From NCBI RefSeq assembly GCF_002786295.1, contig NZ_PGTC01000018.1, positions 124,001-188,000 on the forward strand: DNA of 64,000 bases, read 5' to 3'. This DNA is from Pseudooceanicola marinus (GTDB lineage: Bacteria; Pseudomonadota; Alphaproteobacteria; Rhodobacterales; Rhodobacteraceae). Below, in pieces: positions 35,881 through 52,359 of the stretch. The notes beneath the pieces were generated by a model. The model was not told where the DNA came from. It did not search any database and was given only the letters and a program-made list of their open reading frames with translations. Position 1 is the first letter of the stretch. Each line of letters begins with the position of its first letter. A program made the position numbers and the translations under genes.

Positions 35881-35957
35881 TGGCGCGGTTGACGGGGCTC
35901 GAACCCGCGACCTCCGGCGTGACAGGCCGGCACTCTAACCAACTGAGCTACAACCGC
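35881..35957 (-). tRNA. tRNA-Asp (GTC), copy 1
   Basis: 77 bases with encoded CCA at the 3-prime end (35881-35883). Acceptor GCGGTTG pairs with CAACCGC, discriminator G. The anticodon loop is CTGTCAC in a CCGGC/GCCGG stem, giving anticodon GTC. T-arm GCGGG-TTCGAGC-CCCGT is regular. Confidence 0.96.
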
Positions 35958-36096: not shown

Positions 36097-36173
36097 TGGC
36101 GCGGTTGACGGGGCTCGAACCCGCGACCTCCGGCGTGACAGGCCGGCACTCTAACCAACTGAGCTACAACCGC
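36097..36173 (-). tRNA. tRNA-Asp (GTC), copy 2
   Basis: Identical over its 77 bases to copy 1, including encoded CCA (36097-36099). Anticodon GTC. The 139 bases between the copies are not similar to each other except for a few bases next to the CCA end. Confidence 0.96.
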
Positions 36174-46465: not shown

Positions 46466-48343
46466 ATGACCGAGGTGATGCGCGTGGCACGCAAGGACCG
46501 GACGCGCTGGCTGCGCTACGTCGCGCCCCTGACCGTCGGAAGCGCCTGTCTCTGGCTGCTTTGGAACCGCCTGCGGACGCTCGACCCCGACGCGCTGTGG
46601 CAGAGTTTCCTCGCGGTCAGCCCGGCGCAATGGGCCCTGGCGCTGGTGGCCACGGCCGTCTCCTTCTGGTCGCTCGGACGCTACGACGCGGTGATACACC
46701 GACATCTCCGCACCGGCATCTCGGCCCGTGATGCCCAGCTTTCGGGCATGTCCTCGATCGCGCTGGCCCAACTCCTCGGCCTAGGCGTGGTGACCGGTAC
46801 GCTGGCGCGCTGGCGCCTGCTGCCGCAACTCGGGCCCCTGCGCGTGACCCAGGTCACCGCCGCCGTCTCGGCCTCCTTCCTCATCGCCTGGGCCTTGGTC
46901 ACCGCGCTGGCCTGCCTGCTGCTCGCCCCGCGCCTGCTGCCGGAATGGCTGGCCCTGCTCGGGCTGGTGTTCTTCCTGACCCTACCGGCGGCCTCGCTCT
47001 TCGCGCCGGAACTGCGGTTTGCCCGGCTGCGCCTGCGCCTGCCATCGCTCAAGGCCATGGGGGCCATCACCTTCTTCGCCGCCATCGACACCTGCGCCGC
47101 AGGCCTGGCGCTCTATGCCCTGCTGCCCGAGCCGCCGGGCTTTGCCGCCTTCCTGCCGGTTTTCCTGCTGGCCCTGGGCGCCGGTCTTTTCGCCGGGACA
47201 CCCGGCGGGGTCGGCCCGTTCGAGCTGTCGCTGCTGGCGCTTCTGCCCGCCCTGCCGGAAAGTGACCTCTTCGCCGCCGTTCTGGCCTTCCGCCTGGTCT
47301 ACTACCTGCTGCCCGCGGCGCTGGCCACGCTGCATATCTTCCGCCCCCGCCCGGTGGTCGAGGCGCCGCCCCGTCGGCGCACCTCCCGCCGGATCCCCGA
47401 CCTGCTGCTGGACCATGCGCCGCGCGCGGAATGCGGCGTCGCGCGGCAGAACGGCGCGCGACTCCTGGGCTGTGCCGCCAGCGGCGCCCTGTGCATCGAC
47501 ACGCCCCAGACGCTGACCCTGCTCTTCGACCCGCTGTCCGGCAGCCTGGGCCCCTTGCTGCCGCGTCTTTCCGCCGCCGCGCGCAGCTCGAACCGCATCC
47601 CCGTCGTCTACAAATGCTCCGCCCGGCAGGCGCTGGCAGCCCGCAAGGCGGGCTGGCAGATCCTGCATGTCGCCGATGACGCCGTCATCGACCCCGGCGC
47701 GCTGACCCTCGACGGCGCCGCATTCCGGCAGTTGCGCCGCAAGCTGCGCAACGCGGAAAAGGCCGGCGTGACAATCTCTTGCGAGACGAAGTTGCCCCTG
47801 GCCGACCTTGCGCGACTGGACGCCGAATGGAAAGCACTGCACGGGGTCGCCCGCGGATTGTCGACCGGGCGCTTCGCCCCCTCCTACGTCGCCCGGCAAC
47901 GGGTCTTCGGCGCGCGGATCGACGGCGATCCGGTCGCCTATATCACCCTGCACGAGAACCAGAACCAACTCTGCCTCGACCTGATGCGGCACGGCGCAGA
48001 TCTGCCCGACGGCACGATGCACGCCCTTGTCACGGCCGCGGCGCGAGAGGCCGCCCGGCTGGGCCTGCCGCTGTCGCTGGCGGCCATTCCCGCCCGCCCC
48101 GGGAATGAGGGACGCATGATGACCTGGGCCCGCGCCCAGGTCGCGGCGCGGACCGGCGGCATGGGCCTGACGCGGTTCAAGGACAGTTTCGCCCCGCGCC
48201 ACCAGCCTCTCTACATGGCCGCCCCCGGGCGCGGCGCGCTGGCGCTGGCAGCCGCCGATCTGGCCCTTGCCATGCGGCGTCCTGCCCGAACCCGGGCACA
48301 GCCCCTTCCCACGGAGAGCGCGCTTGCGTATGAGAGGTCTTGA
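46466..48343 (+). CDS. MprF-like phosphatidylglycerol aminoacyltransferase/flippase
   Basis: A 625-residue protein in two parts. Residues 1-310 hold about eight membrane segments with GTPGGVGPFELSLL, the flippase-like (UPF0104) signature. Residues about 325-610 are a soluble GNAT-like domain (DUF2156) with FRQLRRKLRNAEKAGV and YITLHENQNQLCLDLMRHG. This is the plan of MprF, which adds Lys or Ala to phosphatidylglycerol and moves the lipid outward. The specificity cannot be read. It lies 50 bases before the methyltransferase gene on the same strand. Confidence 0.85.
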   Translation: MTEVMRVARKDRTRWLRYVAPLTVGSACLWLLWNRLRTLDPDALWQSFLAVSPAQWALALVATAVSFWSLGRYDAVIHRHLRTGISARDAQLSGMSSIALAQLLGLGVVTGTLARWRLLPQLGPLRVTQVTAAVSASFLIAWALVTALACLLLAPRLLPEWLALLGLVFFLTLPAASLFAPELRFARLRLRLPSLKAMGAITFFAAIDTCAAGLALYALLPEPPGFAAFLPVFLLALGAGLFAGTPGGVGPFELSLLALLPALPESDLFAAVLAFRLVYYLLPAALATLHIFRPRPVVEAPPRRRTSRRIPDLLLDHAPRAECGVARQNGARLLGCAASGALCIDTPQTLTLLFDPLSGSLGPLLPRLSAAARSSNRIPVVYKCSARQALAARKAGWQILHVADDAVIDPGALTLDGAAFRQLRRKLRNAEKAGVTISCETKLPLADLARLDAEWKALHGVARGLSTGRFAPSYVARQRVFGARIDGDPVAYITLHENQNQLCLDLMRHGADLPDGTMHALVTAAAREAARLGLPLSLAAIPARPGNEGRMMTWARAQVAARTGGMGLTRFKDSFAPRHQPLYMAAPGRGALALAAADLALAMRRPARTRAQPLPTESALAYERS

Positions 48344-48392
48344 ACAAGCGCGGCCCCCGGCGCGGCCGGAACGCCCCTGCCAGGAGAGCCCG

Positions 48393-49406
48393 ATGACCGA
48401 TGCCCTGTCCCGACTGCTGCAATCCCGCGACTGGCTGATGGCCGATGGCGCCACCGGCACCAACCTCTTCAACATGGGGCTGACCGCGGGCGACGCCCCC
48501 GAGATTTGGAACGTTGAGCACCCCGACCGCATCCGCACCCTCTACCGCTCGGCGGTCGAGGCCGGGTCGGACATCTTCCTGACCAATACCTTCGGCGGCA
48601 ATGCCTCCCGGCTGAAACTGCACGGCGCACAGTCCCGGGTGAGCGAGCTGAACCGCATCGGCGCCGAGCTGGGCCGCGAGGTGGCCGATGCCGCAGGCCG
48701 CCCGGTCGTGGTCGCCGGCTCCGTCGGGCCGACGGGGGACATCATGGCGCCGATGGGTCCGCTGACCCATGAAACGGCCGTGGAGATGTTCCACGAACAG
48801 GCCGAGGGCCTGAAGGCCGGGGGCGCCGACGTGCTCTGGCTGGAAACCATCTCCGCCCCCGAGGAATACCGCGCTGCCGCCGAGGCCTTCAAACTGGCCG
48901 ACATGCCCTGGTGCGGCACCATGAGCTTCGACACCGCCGGGCGCACGATGATGGGCCTGACCTCGGAAGGCATGGCGCGGACGGTCGAGAAACTGGACAA
49001 CCCGCCGATCGCCTTCGGCGCCAATTGCGGCGTCGGCGCCTCGGACCTGCTGCGCACCGTACTGGGCTTCTCCGCCCTCGGGATCGAGCGGCCGATCATC
49101 GCCAAGGGCAATGCCGGGATCCCGAAATACGAAGACGGCCATATCCACTATGACGGCACGCCGGAGCTGATGGCCGAATACGCGGTCCTGGCCCGCGATT
49201 GCGGCGCCACGATCATCGGCGGCTGTTGCGGCACCATGCCCGAACACCTGGAGAAGATGCGCGAGGCGCTCTCGACCCGCCCCCGCGGCCCGCGTCCGAC
49301 CCTCGATCAGATCACCGAAAAGCTGGGCGGCTTCTCCTCCGCCTCCGACGGCACCGGCGACGATGCCACCCCGGCCCGCCGACCGCGCCGGCGCAGCCGG
49401 GGCTGA
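48393..49406 (+). CDS. bmt: Homocysteine S-methyltransferase (BHMT-like, MetH homocysteine module)
   Basis: A 337-residue cytoplasmic enzyme of the homocysteine methyltransferase family, annotated as betaine-homocysteine methyltransferase in relatives. The zinc ligands are Cys212 (GANCGVG), Cys278 and Cys279 (GGCCGT). MADGATGTNLF at 16-26 is the substrate loop. It equals the N-terminal module of MetH without the folate, cobalamin and activation modules. A free corrinoid protein is encoded 1.5 kb downstream, so the methyl donor may be methylcobalamin on that protein instead of betaine. CAGGAGAG precedes the ATG. The C-terminus is a basic tail. Confidence 0.9.
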   Translation: MTDALSRLLQSRDWLMADGATGTNLFNMGLTAGDAPEIWNVEHPDRIRTLYRSAVEAGSDIFLTNTFGGNASRLKLHGAQSRVSELNRIGAELGREVADAAGRPVVVAGSVGPTGDIMAPMGPLTHETAVEMFHEQAEGLKAGGADVLWLETISAPEEYRAAAEAFKLADMPWCGTMSFDTAGRTMMGLTSEGMARTVEKLDNPPIAFGANCGVGASDLLRTVLGFSALGIERPIIAKGNAGIPKYEDGHIHYDGTPELMAEYAVLARDCGATIIGGCCGTMPEHLEKMREALSTRPRGPRPTLDQITEKLGGFSSASDGTGDDATPARRPRRRSRG

Positions 49407-49500
49407 GCAGTCCGCAGCGATGCCTGAAATGGCCCGGACGGGCGCCCGCGACCGCCGTGCACGCGGGATCGCGCGCCACGGCTCTGCTTCACCTTGTTCG

Positions 49501-49580
49501 AAATACTCCGGGGACGGAGCCGCGTCCCGGAAATCGTCCAGTGGACGATTTCAGCAGCGAAGGGGCGGAGCCCCCCCCTT
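49501..49580. repeat. Dispersed intergenic palindromic repeat, copy D (expanded)
   Basis: AAATACTCCGGGGACGGAGC at the left and GGGGCGGAGCCCCCCCC at the right, with an inserted hairpin AAATCGTCCA/TGGACGATTT in the middle. Longer and more diverged than copies A-C. Confidence 0.65.
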
Positions 49581-49591
49581 TCCAGCCCCAT

Positions 49592-50707
49592 TTAGTCGAA
49601 AAGCGACAGCTGCTCTCCGGGTTTCACCGGCACGCGGAACAGGTCGCAACGCAGCTCGGGCTGCGGCACGTCCAATCCGTGGCGCTTCACCGCCGCGCGG
49701 AACCTTTGGGCAATCATCGCCGCATAGGGTCCCTCACCGCGCATCCGCTTGTGCCACTGGGCCGAGTAATCCTGACCGCCGTGCATCTCGCGCAGGCGGG
49801 TCATCACCCGTTTCGCCCGGTCGGGATAGTGCTCGGCCAACCATTCCTGGAACAGCGGTGACACCTCGCGCGGCAGGCGCAGCATGATCCAGCTGGCGGC
49901 CGTGGCCCCGGCGCCTGCACAGGCCTCCAGGATCTTCTCCACCTCGGCGTCGGTCAGAGCGGGCACCACGGGCGAAACCATGGCGCGCACCGGCACCCCC
50001 GCCCGCGCCAGCGCCCGGATCACTTGCAACCGTTTCTCCGGGCCAGGCACGCGCGGCTCCATCCGGCGGGACAGGTCACGGTCCAGCGTGGTGACGGAAA
50101 TGCCCACGCGCACCAGGCCGAGCTTGGCCATCTTCCGCAGGATATCCAGATCGCGCAGGATCCCGGTGCCCTTGGTGACGATGGCGACCGGGTGGCGATG
50201 CTCCCACAGCACCTGCAGGCACTCGCGCATCAGCCCGTGGGTCTTGTCGATCGGCTGATAGGGGTCGGTGTTCGTCCCGATGGCGATCGGCGCGACCTTA
50301 TAGCTACGCTTGCCCAGCTCGGCCGTCAGGACCTCCGCCGCATTGGGACGCGCCACCAGCCGGGTCTCGAAATCCAGCCCAGGGGACAGGCCGAGGTAGG
50401 CGTGGCTGGGCCGGGCGAAGCAGTAGATGCAGCCGTGTTCGCAGCCGCGGTAAGGATTGATCGAGCGGTCGAAGGGCAGATCGGGCGAGCGATTGTAGGT
50501 GATCAGGCTGCGCGCGCGCTCCTCGCGCACTTCGGTGCGGATCTGCACCGGCTCCTCGATCACCTCCCAGCCATCATCTTCCGCCACCGTCTCCAGCGCC
50601 TCGTAGCGTCCGGGGGCGTTGCTAACGGCGCCGCGCCCGCGGCGGGCGCGGGTGTCGATGCCATGGGGCGGTGTCGTTTCGGGCGGGGTGTCGATGTTTT
50701 CAGCCAT
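49592..50707 (-). CDS. PA0069 family radical SAM protein (SplB-like)
   Basis: A radical SAM protein of 371 residues from the start at 50707. The [4Fe-4S] motif is CEHGCIYC near residue 90, followed by GTNTDPYQPIDK and VTKGTGILRD. The C-terminal third has SWIMLRLPREVSPLFQEWLAEHYP, the mark of the PA0069 branch related to spore photoproduct lyase. Substrate unknown. The start is uncertain: ATG at 50740 is also in frame, with GAGAGGA 14 bases upstream. It stands on the minus strand between the two parts of the putative methyl-transfer system. Confidence 0.85.
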   Translation of the reverse strand: MAENIDTPPETTPPHGIDTRARRGRGAVSNAPGRYEALETVAEDDGWEVIEEPVQIRTEVREERARSLITYNRSPDLPFDRSINPYRGCEHGCIYCFARPSHAYLGLSPGLDFETRLVARPNAAEVLTAELGKRSYKVAPIAIGTNTDPYQPIDKTHGLMRECLQVLWEHRHPVAIVTKGTGILRDLDILRKMAKLGLVRVGISVTTLDRDLSRRMEPRVPGPEKRLQVIRALARAGVPVRAMVSPVVPALTDAEVEKILEACAGAGATAASWIMLRLPREVSPLFQEWLAEHYPDRAKRVMTRLREMHGGQDYSAQWHKRMRGEGPYAAMIAQRFRAAVKRHGLDVPQPELRCDLFRVPVKPGEQLSLFD

Positions 50708-50833
50708 GGAAGGGTGCGGGGCAGCGGAATCATGGAACATATGATGAACATAGGTCCTCTCGGGACAAACCTCCATGATTCCTTTCAGGATTTCTTTGGG
50801 CCTTGCATGCCATAGGTCGTCCGCATCGTCCGT

Positions 50834-50875
50834 TTTGTCGCATTCCGCAAAGTCAGCGGGTCGCTTTGCGACAAA
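50834..50875. promoter_or_regulatory. Long-spaced inverted repeat upstream of the corrinoid gene
   Basis: TTTGTCGC and GCGACAAA as outer arms, with GCAAAG and CTTTGC inside and sharing bases with them. It lies between divergent genes, 46 bases before the corrinoid protein start. It could be a pair of operator half-sites or an RNA hairpin. Confidence 0.5.
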
Positions 50876-50921
50876 GGTCGGGGAATGGGCCAGGCCCGCG
50901 CGCAGCAGATCGGGGAAGAAC

Positions 50922-51623
50922 ATGTCCGACGAAGAAGAAGAAATCATCCTGTCCGAACTGGACGACGACGAACTGGTCCAGCAGATGATGGACGACCTCT
51001 ATGACGGTCTGAAGGAAGAGATCGAAGAGGGCGTGAACATCCTGCTCGAACGCGGCTGGACCCCCTATCGTGTCCTGACCGAGGCCCTGGTGGGTGGCAT
51101 GACGATTGTCGGCGCCGACTTCCGCGACGGGATCCTTTTCGTGCCGGAGGTGCTGCTGGCAGCCAATGCGATGAAGGGCGGCATGGCCATCCTGAAGCCG
51201 CTGCTGGCCGAAACCGGCGCACGCACCATCGGAAAGATGGTCATCGGCACGGTGAAGGGCGACATCCACGACATCGGCAAGAACCTGGTGTCGATGATGA
51301 TGGAAGGCGCGGGTTTCGAGATCGTCGATCTGGGCATCAACAACCCGGTCGAAGAGTACATCGAGGCGATCAAGCGCGAAGAAGCCGACATCCTCGGCAT
51401 GTCCGCCCTGCTGACCACCACCATGCCCTACATGAAGGTCGTGATCGACACGATGAAGGAACAGGGCATCCGCGATGACTACATCATCCTGGTGGGCGGC
51501 GCGCCGCTGAACGAGGAGTTCGGACGCGCCATCGGCGCCGATGCCTATTGCCGCGACGCCGCCGTGGCGGTGGAAACCGCCAAGACCTTCATCGCGCGCA
51601 AGCACAACCAGGCCACGGCCTGA
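50922..51623 (+). CDS. Free-standing corrinoid (B12-binding) protein
   Basis: A 233-residue protein with the two domains of MtaC/MtbC-type corrinoid carriers: a helical cap (about 20-105) and a Rossmann-like cobalamin domain. The axial ligand motif is GDIHDIGKN with His116; MSALLTTTMPYMK and LVGGAPLNEEFGRAIGAD follow as in the B12-binding module of MetH. It would carry a methyl group between partner methyltransferases. The acidic N-terminus (MSDEEEEI) is unusual. AGATCGGGGAAG precedes the ATG. Confidence 0.93.
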   Translation: MSDEEEEIILSELDDDELVQQMMDDLYDGLKEEIEEGVNILLERGWTPYRVLTEALVGGMTIVGADFRDGILFVPEVLLAANAMKGGMAILKPLLAETGARTIGKMVIGTVKGDIHDIGKNLVSMMMEGAGFEIVDLGINNPVEEYIEAIKREEADILGMSALLTTTMPYMKVVIDTMKEQGIRDDYIILVGGAPLNEEFGRAIGADAYCRDAAVAVETAKTFIARKHNQATA

Positions 51624-51702: not shown

Positions 51703-52359
51703 ATGACCGATCTTCCCGATGACCAGACCCTGACCCAATCCGGCGCCAGCCTGACGGAAACGCGCCTGACCGAGGGCGAGGCCTCCACCCTGCTGATCGC
51801 CTGCGGGGCTCTGGCCCATGAGGTGCTGGCGCTGAAACGCATGAACGGGCTGGATCACCTCGACCTGATCTGCCTGCCCGCCATTCTGCACAACACGCCC
51901 GAGAAGATCACCGATGCCGTCCGCGCCGCTGCGGAACGGCACCGCGACCGCTACGCGCGCATCCACGTGCTCTACGCCGATTGCGGCACCGGCGGGCTGC
52001 TGGCCGCCGAATGCGACCGCCTGGGGGTGGAGATGTTGCCCGGCGCCCATTGCTACGCCTTCTTCGACGGGGTCGAGCGGTTCGAGGCGCGCGACGAGCT
52101 GACCGCCTTCTACCTGACCGACTTCCTCGCCCGGCAGTTCGACGCCTTCGTCTGGGAACCCCTGGGCCTGGACCGTCACCCGGACCTGCTGCCGATGTAT
52201 TTCGGCCATTACACCCACTTGGTCTACCTGGCCCAGACCGAAGATCCGGCGCTGACTGCGAAGGCGCGCGAGGCCGCCGACAGGCTGGGCCTTGAATTCA
52301 CCCGGCGATTCACGGGATATGGCGATCTCGCCACCGCCCTGACCCGGAAGCCCTCGTGA
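51703..52359 (+). CDS. DUF1638 protein
   Basis: A 218-residue soluble protein of DUF1638. The family occurs beside corrinoid methyltransferase genes in archaea and bacteria and has no settled function. Visible features are LLIACGALAHEV at the N-terminus with Cys32, HVLYADCGTGG with a second Cys, and the conserved GAHCYAFFDG with a third, a pattern that could bind a metal or corrinoid. It follows the corrinoid gene by 79 bases and overlaps the next gene by four (GTGA). Confidence 0.85.
   Translation: MTDLPDDQTLTQSGASLTETRLTEGEASTLLIACGALAHEVLALKRMNGLDHLDLICLPAILHNTPEKITDAVRAAAERHRDRYARIHVLYADCGTGGLLAAECDRLGVEMLPGAHCYAFFDGVERFEARDELTAFYLTDFLARQFDAFVWEPLGLDRHPDLLPMYFGHYTHLVYLAQTEDPALTAKAREAADRLGLEFTRRFTGYGDLATALTRKPS

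Follow-up and report, generated by a model that had tools for sequence, protein, structure and literature searches.

Separate homocysteine and corrinoid modules of a likely MtgBCDE system in Pseudooceanicola marinus, encoded alongside a complete MetH

We analysed a stretch of 64,000 nucleotides, positions 124001-188000 of contig C18 of the Pseudooceanicola marinus genome (4.50 Mb, 99.66% complete), and call this whole stretch the window. Two of its genes encode a stand-alone homocysteine methyltransferase module and a stand-alone corrinoid protein. They are likely the MtgE and MtgC components of the MtgBCDE system, which is the same as the Phaeobacter split methionine synthase, with a methionine-forming role redundant with MetH. 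The locus is ordinary for its family and of a kind already known, and its coexistence with MetH is uncommon, not unique.

The locus comprises the following genes in window coordinates.

48393..49406, + strand: mtgE (bmt), stand-alone homocysteine methyltransferase module, 337 amino acids (PF02574, NF005718)
49592..50839, - strand: PA0069-family radical S-adenosylmethionine (SAM) gene between the modules (NF033668, 505 bits)
50922..51623, + strand: mtgC, stand-alone corrinoid protein with cap and B12-binding domains, 233 amino acids (PF02607 and PF02310)
51703..52359, + strand: DUF1638 protein, predicted corrinoid-reactivation partner (PF07796, 100 bits with a cut-off of 27)

The MtgE and MtgC modules

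The 48393-49406 protein matches all 283 positions of PF02574 with 216 bits, and its three zinc cysteines, C212 in NCG and C278-C279 in GGCCG, are conserved without exception among 29 aligned sequences. MtgC starts at the ATG at 50922, ends at 51623 and carries the DxHxxG motif as GTVKGDIHDIGKN. The family scores of the two proteins (E-values of 9.8e-64 and 3.7e-26) exclude chance, and a domain scan of both found neither PF00809 nor PF02965. An earlier sequence-only reading had described just these features, namely the zinc cysteines, the free cobalamin domain 1.5 kb off and the missing folate and activation domains, and all of them hold. Its proposal that the gene order fits the Phaeobacter split synthase is equally sound, as the order equals PGA1_c13370-13360-13350-13340 of P. 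inhibens (Price et al. 2018, PMC5764234). It was incomplete in that it did not mention the antisense radical-SAM gene lying in the gap and did not consider a betaine arm of the MtgB type.

MtgE scores 607.8 bits against NF005718, 'betaine--homocysteine S-methyltransferase' (BHMT), the cut-off being 338. This label appears doubtful because MtgE is nearer to MetH in sequence and mostly in modelled fold and because Gly replaces Tyr77 of BHMT. When solved structures are ranked by sequence, Thermotoga MetH comes best with 142.8 bits, followed by other MetH and then by BHMT with 62.9 bits. An AlphaFold model built with 29 sequences (predicted local distance difference test, pLDDT, 86.3; predicted template modelling score, pTM, 0.87) matches MetH structures with Z of 33.2-38.9 and 28-33% identity, BHMT with Z of 28.9-33.1 and 24-25% identity, and MmuM with Z of 29.4-32.7, the lowest MetH row being a tie with the best BHMT row.

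Vertebrate BHMT has the fold (Z 29-33) and the zinc-cysteine motifs in common with MtgE but is less similar to it than MetH, and the sequence alignment stops at BHMT residue 336 of 406. Two aromatics of its betaine site are not kept. MtgE, like Thermotoga MetH, has Asn and Gly in place of Phe74 and Tyr77, but it retains Phe76. Tyr77, the aromatic that we took as the mark of a BHMT, is described as hydrogen-bonding betaine (PMC3871600). Nevertheless, the label is not to be dismissed wholly, given a report that purified P. inhibens Bmt alone forms methionine from betaine or dimethylsulfoniopropionate (DMSP) in vitro (PMC12366255). Hence the suspicion that the BHMT annotation is wrong or incomplete gains from the closeness to MetH and the lost Tyr77, and loses from this activity.

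Apart from MtgC itself, the genome has no close relative of this protein, as the two further matches are MetH (35%) and a weak hit on C10. Further B12-binding matches lie on C10, C16 and C24. Likewise, PF02574 is matched elsewhere in the genome just once, inside MetH.

The arrangement recurs. With the corrinoid protein as query, GTDB contigs gave at least 589 relatives, of which the best 80 loci were kept; their record titles name mostly Rhodobacterales genera or metagenome-assembled genomes. Upstream counts need at least 5 kb of flank (73 loci) and downstream counts at least 3 kb (75), and 70 loci have both. MtgE lies within 5 kb upstream of mtgC on the same strand at 57 of the 73 loci, the antisense radical-SAM gene at 61 of the 73, and DUF1638 within 3 kb downstream at 70 of the 75. 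The full order of mtgE, radical SAM, mtgC and DUF1638 is present at 43 of the 70.

At seven Ruegeria-titled loci, MtgE is absent within the fetched flank, consistent with the distant locus numbers of mtgC and mtgE in R. pomeroyi. The radical-SAM gene, whose longest frame extends to 50947 with an uncertain start, is probably a conserved neighbour and not a functional part. Its P. inhibens counterpart was reported as not important (PMC5764234).

Two side observations concern these loci. On one contig, whose title is Enemella evansiae, MtgC shares 90% identity with the window protein and is likewise flanked by the radical-SAM and DUF1638 genes; this record is probably mislabelled or contaminated. 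Directly upstream of mtgE, at window 46466-48343, a gene has both MprF-type lysyl-phosphatidylglycerol synthase domains, and a relative of it is present in 15 of the 80 fetched loci.

Partner genes and the complete MetH

The other parts are encoded outside this locus, together with further candidate methionine synthases (L008 and L009 are fetched loci of this genome).

C8, 90.3-91.3 kb: MtgD, stand-alone pterin-binding methyltransferase (NF005719, 404.6 bits with a cut-off of 259)
C17, 60248-61747: MtgB-type methyltransferase (PF06253, 779.5 bits)
C18, PF14574 match at 47655-48470: RamA-like protein with RACo domains, reactivator
C17, about 227.0-230.9 kb: metH, complete five-domain methionine synthase (1304-amino-acid frame, NF007024, 2122.8 bits)
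L009, 1591-2832, - strand: core-MetE-like gene (PF01717)
L008, 3008-4132, + strand: core-MetE-like gene (PF01717)

The genome thus has every component by which we recognise MtgBCDE, namely stand-alone MtgE, MtgC and MtgD, a PF06253 protein, and the RamA-like protein with DUF1638. MtgD is the free pterin-binding methyltransferase for which the sequence-only reading had proposed a search. Against solved structures, the MtgB-type protein scores 395.9 bits with 9yce, a glycine betaine methyltransferase, and 125.8 with 7xcl, a trimethylamine enzyme, so by similarity glycine betaine is its likely donor substrate. A second PF06253 match, on C9, is weak and under the cut-off.

By analogy with the P. 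inhibens and R. pomeroyi homologues, we infer the redundancy with MetH and also which reactions take place and in which direction methyl groups flow. MtgC would hold a methyl group on its cobalamin, for which MtgB would draw on glycine betaine or another quaternary amine related to it. MtgD would swap the methyl between MtgC and methyl-tetrahydrofolate in both directions, and MtgE would form methionine by transferring it to homocysteine bound at the zinc. Oxidised cobalamin would be restored by the RamA-like protein and DUF1638.

Both homologous systems have been studied genetically. In P. inhibens the three-part synthase is PGA1_c13370/c13350/c16040, acting with c15200 and c13340, and methionine was reported to rescue mutants of five of the six genes, which are the four-gene locus, the pterin module and the RamA-like gene (PMC5764234). 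The rescued mutants include those of the DUF1638 gene PGA1_c13340, and the bmt, corrinoid and pterin mutants have alike fitness patterns (r > 0.7). The same modules, the same bmt-rSAM-corrinoid-DUF1638 order and the location of the pterin module and the RamA-like protein elsewhere are common to P. marinus. The difference is that PF02965 was not found in P. inhibens, whereas the P. marinus genome has a complete MetH.

In R. pomeroyi, the MtgC, MtgD and MtgE modules are reported to serve a dual role in methionine synthesis and betaine demethylation, and the MtgC and MtgD mutants lost both methionine synthesis and growth on glycine betaine (PMC12478193, PNAS 2025). Both genomes have the four Mtg components with RamA and DUF1638. 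The reported R. pomeroyi genes mtgC and mtgE lie apart (SPO2160 and SPO1884), whereas those of P. marinus are separated by 1.5 kb, and P. marinus additionally has MetH and GbcAB-like genes. Sinorhizobium meliloti resembles P. marinus in having DUF1638, RamA-like and mtg genes alongside a full MetH. It differs in that its mtgBCDE, reactivator and cobalamin synthesis genes are reported to be colocated, whereas the P. marinus parts are on C8, C17 and C18.

All domains of a canonical MetH, for homocysteine, pterin, cap, B12 and activation, are present in one polypeptide from the separate C17 gene and not from the window genes. The two core-MetE-like genes, one of which sits directly downstream of metH, are possible further methionine synthases. 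By eye, both have HxC, E and C motifs resembling what we take to be the MetE zinc-ligand pattern.

The complete metH is what the sequence-only reading had named as refuting. It counts against the window genes being the organism's methionine synthase and leaves them as parts of such an enzyme; the sole-synthase version is rejected. The split set is probably not the only route to methionine, and with MetH present the organism should be able to make methionine in ordinary minimal medium without MtgCDE. The MtgCDE branch would matter mainly with betaine-type donors or under limitation of MetH. Among Rhodobacterales, some MetR regulons are reported to include bhmT and metH2 (PMC4239095).

Distribution in the family and alternative explanations

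The family survey covered 374 genomes of 373 genera, this genome included, with MetH presence taken as a match to its activation domain and with Fisher tests of co-occurrence that ignore kinship. MtgE exceeds its cut-off in 343 of the 374 genomes. The activation domain is matched in 66, 65 of them over the cut-off (G090 is under it; G124 and G273 are short pieces), and 52 genomes have both. MetH is commoner without MtgE (14/31, some of the 31 being incomplete assemblies) than with it (52/343, p 1.8e-4), and removing the three doubtful matches gives 14 versus 49 (p 1.0e-4). This genome therefore joins a minority of family genera with MtgE and MetH, which are natural test cases for a non-methionine role of the split set. 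One genome (G309, listed as 100% complete, 2.7 Mb in 6 contigs) has no match to MtgE, MtgC, PF06253 or the MetH activation domain, and could be a methionine auxotroph or rely on a different synthase.

Several points weigh against assigning the window genes to an MtgBCDE system redundant with MetH. The best solved relative of the MtgB-type protein is 4yyc (708 bits), whose record calls it a putative trimethylamine methyltransferase. Among NCBIfam models, only TIGR02369 for trimethylamine matches the MtgB-type protein, under the cut-off (250.1/525). MtgC stays under the curated cut-offs of NF047995 and NF047996 (168.2/310 and 197.5/370); these anaerobe-type MtgC models describe another branch, and the scores are consistent with PMC12478193, where a separate branch is described. 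MtgB and MtgD have no operon link to the mtgE/mtgC locus, being on other contigs. The activity of purified P. inhibens Bmt alone also belongs here.

That activity, together with the NF005718 label, favours the alternative that MtgE is a cobalamin-free betaine- or DMSP-homocysteine methyltransferase and that the corrinoid protein serves betaine demethylation alone. We consider it unlikely, as MtgE resembles MetH more than BHMT apart from the tied fold rows, Phe74 and Tyr77 are replaced as in Thermotoga MetH, and methionine rescues the bmt, corrinoid and pterin mutants of P. inhibens, whose fitness patterns are alike (PMC5764234). It is quite improbable that, as in Phaeobacter, methionine is made chiefly or solely by the split set, with the C17 MetH silent or reserved for special conditions. 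P. inhibens does require its split set (PMC5764234), and MtgE occurs without MetH in 291 of the 343 MtgE genomes, a count of MtgE and not of the whole set. Yet the C17 MetH is intact in all five domains including the activation domain, and MtgE and MetH coexist in the 52 genomes.

Finally, MtgE could be a leftover held by linkage after a gain of MetH, or before its loss, as the partly complementary distribution of the two in the family might suggest. This is highly improbable. MtgE keeps all its catalytic cysteines, and its family score is the same with and without MetH (median 178 versus 178 in -log10 E, p 0.43, all 52 genomes with both compared with 62 of the 291 with MtgE only), so no decay of MtgE is seen in the MetH genomes and the relic is rejected. 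The preferred assignment, an MtgBCDE methyl hub beside MetH, would correct both the BHMT label of the databases and the stronger claim of a split synthase serving as the organism's own.

A cobalamin riboswitch before gbcAB-like genes

Outside the window, divergent from metH, we found a new regulatory lead.

L009, 7087-7297 (C17, 231086-231296), + strand: cobalamin riboswitch, 99 bits, in the gbcA-gbcB leader
L009, 7411-8646: gbcA-like gene, glycine betaine monooxygenase-like (Rieske)
L009, 8643-9725: gbcB-like gene

The GbcA and GbcB names rest on similarity, with scores of 516.7/670 and 389.1/500 bits, both under the curated cut-offs. The genome has at least five cobalamin riboswitches (150 of 336 first-look candidates were scored). 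The other four precede genes for an NrdE-type class I ribonucleotide reductase (752 nt on), a BtuB-like TonB receptor, a CbiM-like transporter and CobW, the NrdE-type and BtuB-like genes being partial frames.

GbcA-like proteins (E-value at most 1e-60) occur in 96 of the 374 family genomes, 15 of them with distant matches only, and go with MetH, which is present in 37 of the 96 versus 29 of the 278 others (p 4.8e-9). Without the distant matches, the numbers are 34/81 versus 32/293 (p 2.0e-9). The genus mate G192 has MetH and MtgE and no GbcA match at this threshold. In seven of the 37 genomes with both, gbcA and metH lie at most about 6 kb apart on one contig (G000, G046, G092, G118, G191, G252 and G342), which hints at a recurring betaine/methionine island.

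A same-strand cobalamin riboswitch is present at 16 of the 30 best gbcA loci from the 96 genomes, or 15 of the 29 further relatives when our own is set aside, and it ends 113-136 nt ahead of the first aligned gbcA codon. At the other 14 loci, no match in the fetched flank reaches the gathering score. A tie to MetH was rejected, as MetH is in 6 of the 16 riboswitch-bearing and 7 of the 14 riboswitch-free genomes. A close stand-alone MtgC relative together with a PF06253 protein is present in 16/16 versus 10/14 (p 0.037), so a link of the riboswitch to MtgB and MtgC presence is suggestive only, kinship being ignored. The leader after our own gbcA aptamer folds barely better than its shuffles (z -1.33), so we claim no expression platform.

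A possible model, to which we give slightly less than an even chance, has two interchangeable betaine demethylation routes switched by B12. With B12 present, MtgBCDE would move betaine methyl groups to folate and methionine. Under B12 shortage, the riboswitch would free gbcAB, whose product, encoded beside metH, would be a B12-free Rieske monooxygenase. Such a B12-controlled choice between GbcAB and MtgBC we can only infer. If true, it would be the betaine-catabolism counterpart of the riboswitch-controlled B12-independent isozymes, and the riboswitch, if functional, would couple a major marine osmolyte's fate to the B12 supply.

Isozymes of B12-dependent enzymes that are controlled by riboswitches form an established class (PMC3766115), and the main text of that regulon survey has no betaine, Rieske or gbcA. 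In PMC12478193, the single mention of a riboswitch is a cited glycine riboswitch. No title or abstract among the matches listed links betaine monooxygenase with a cobalamin riboswitch.

The window genes themselves show no riboswitch control by SAM or S-adenosylhomocysteine (SAH), as Rfam at gathering cut-offs gives only three tRNAs in the window. Two of these, at window 35884-35957 and 36100-36173 on the - strand, match with equal scores 142 bases apart and resemble a tandem duplicate.

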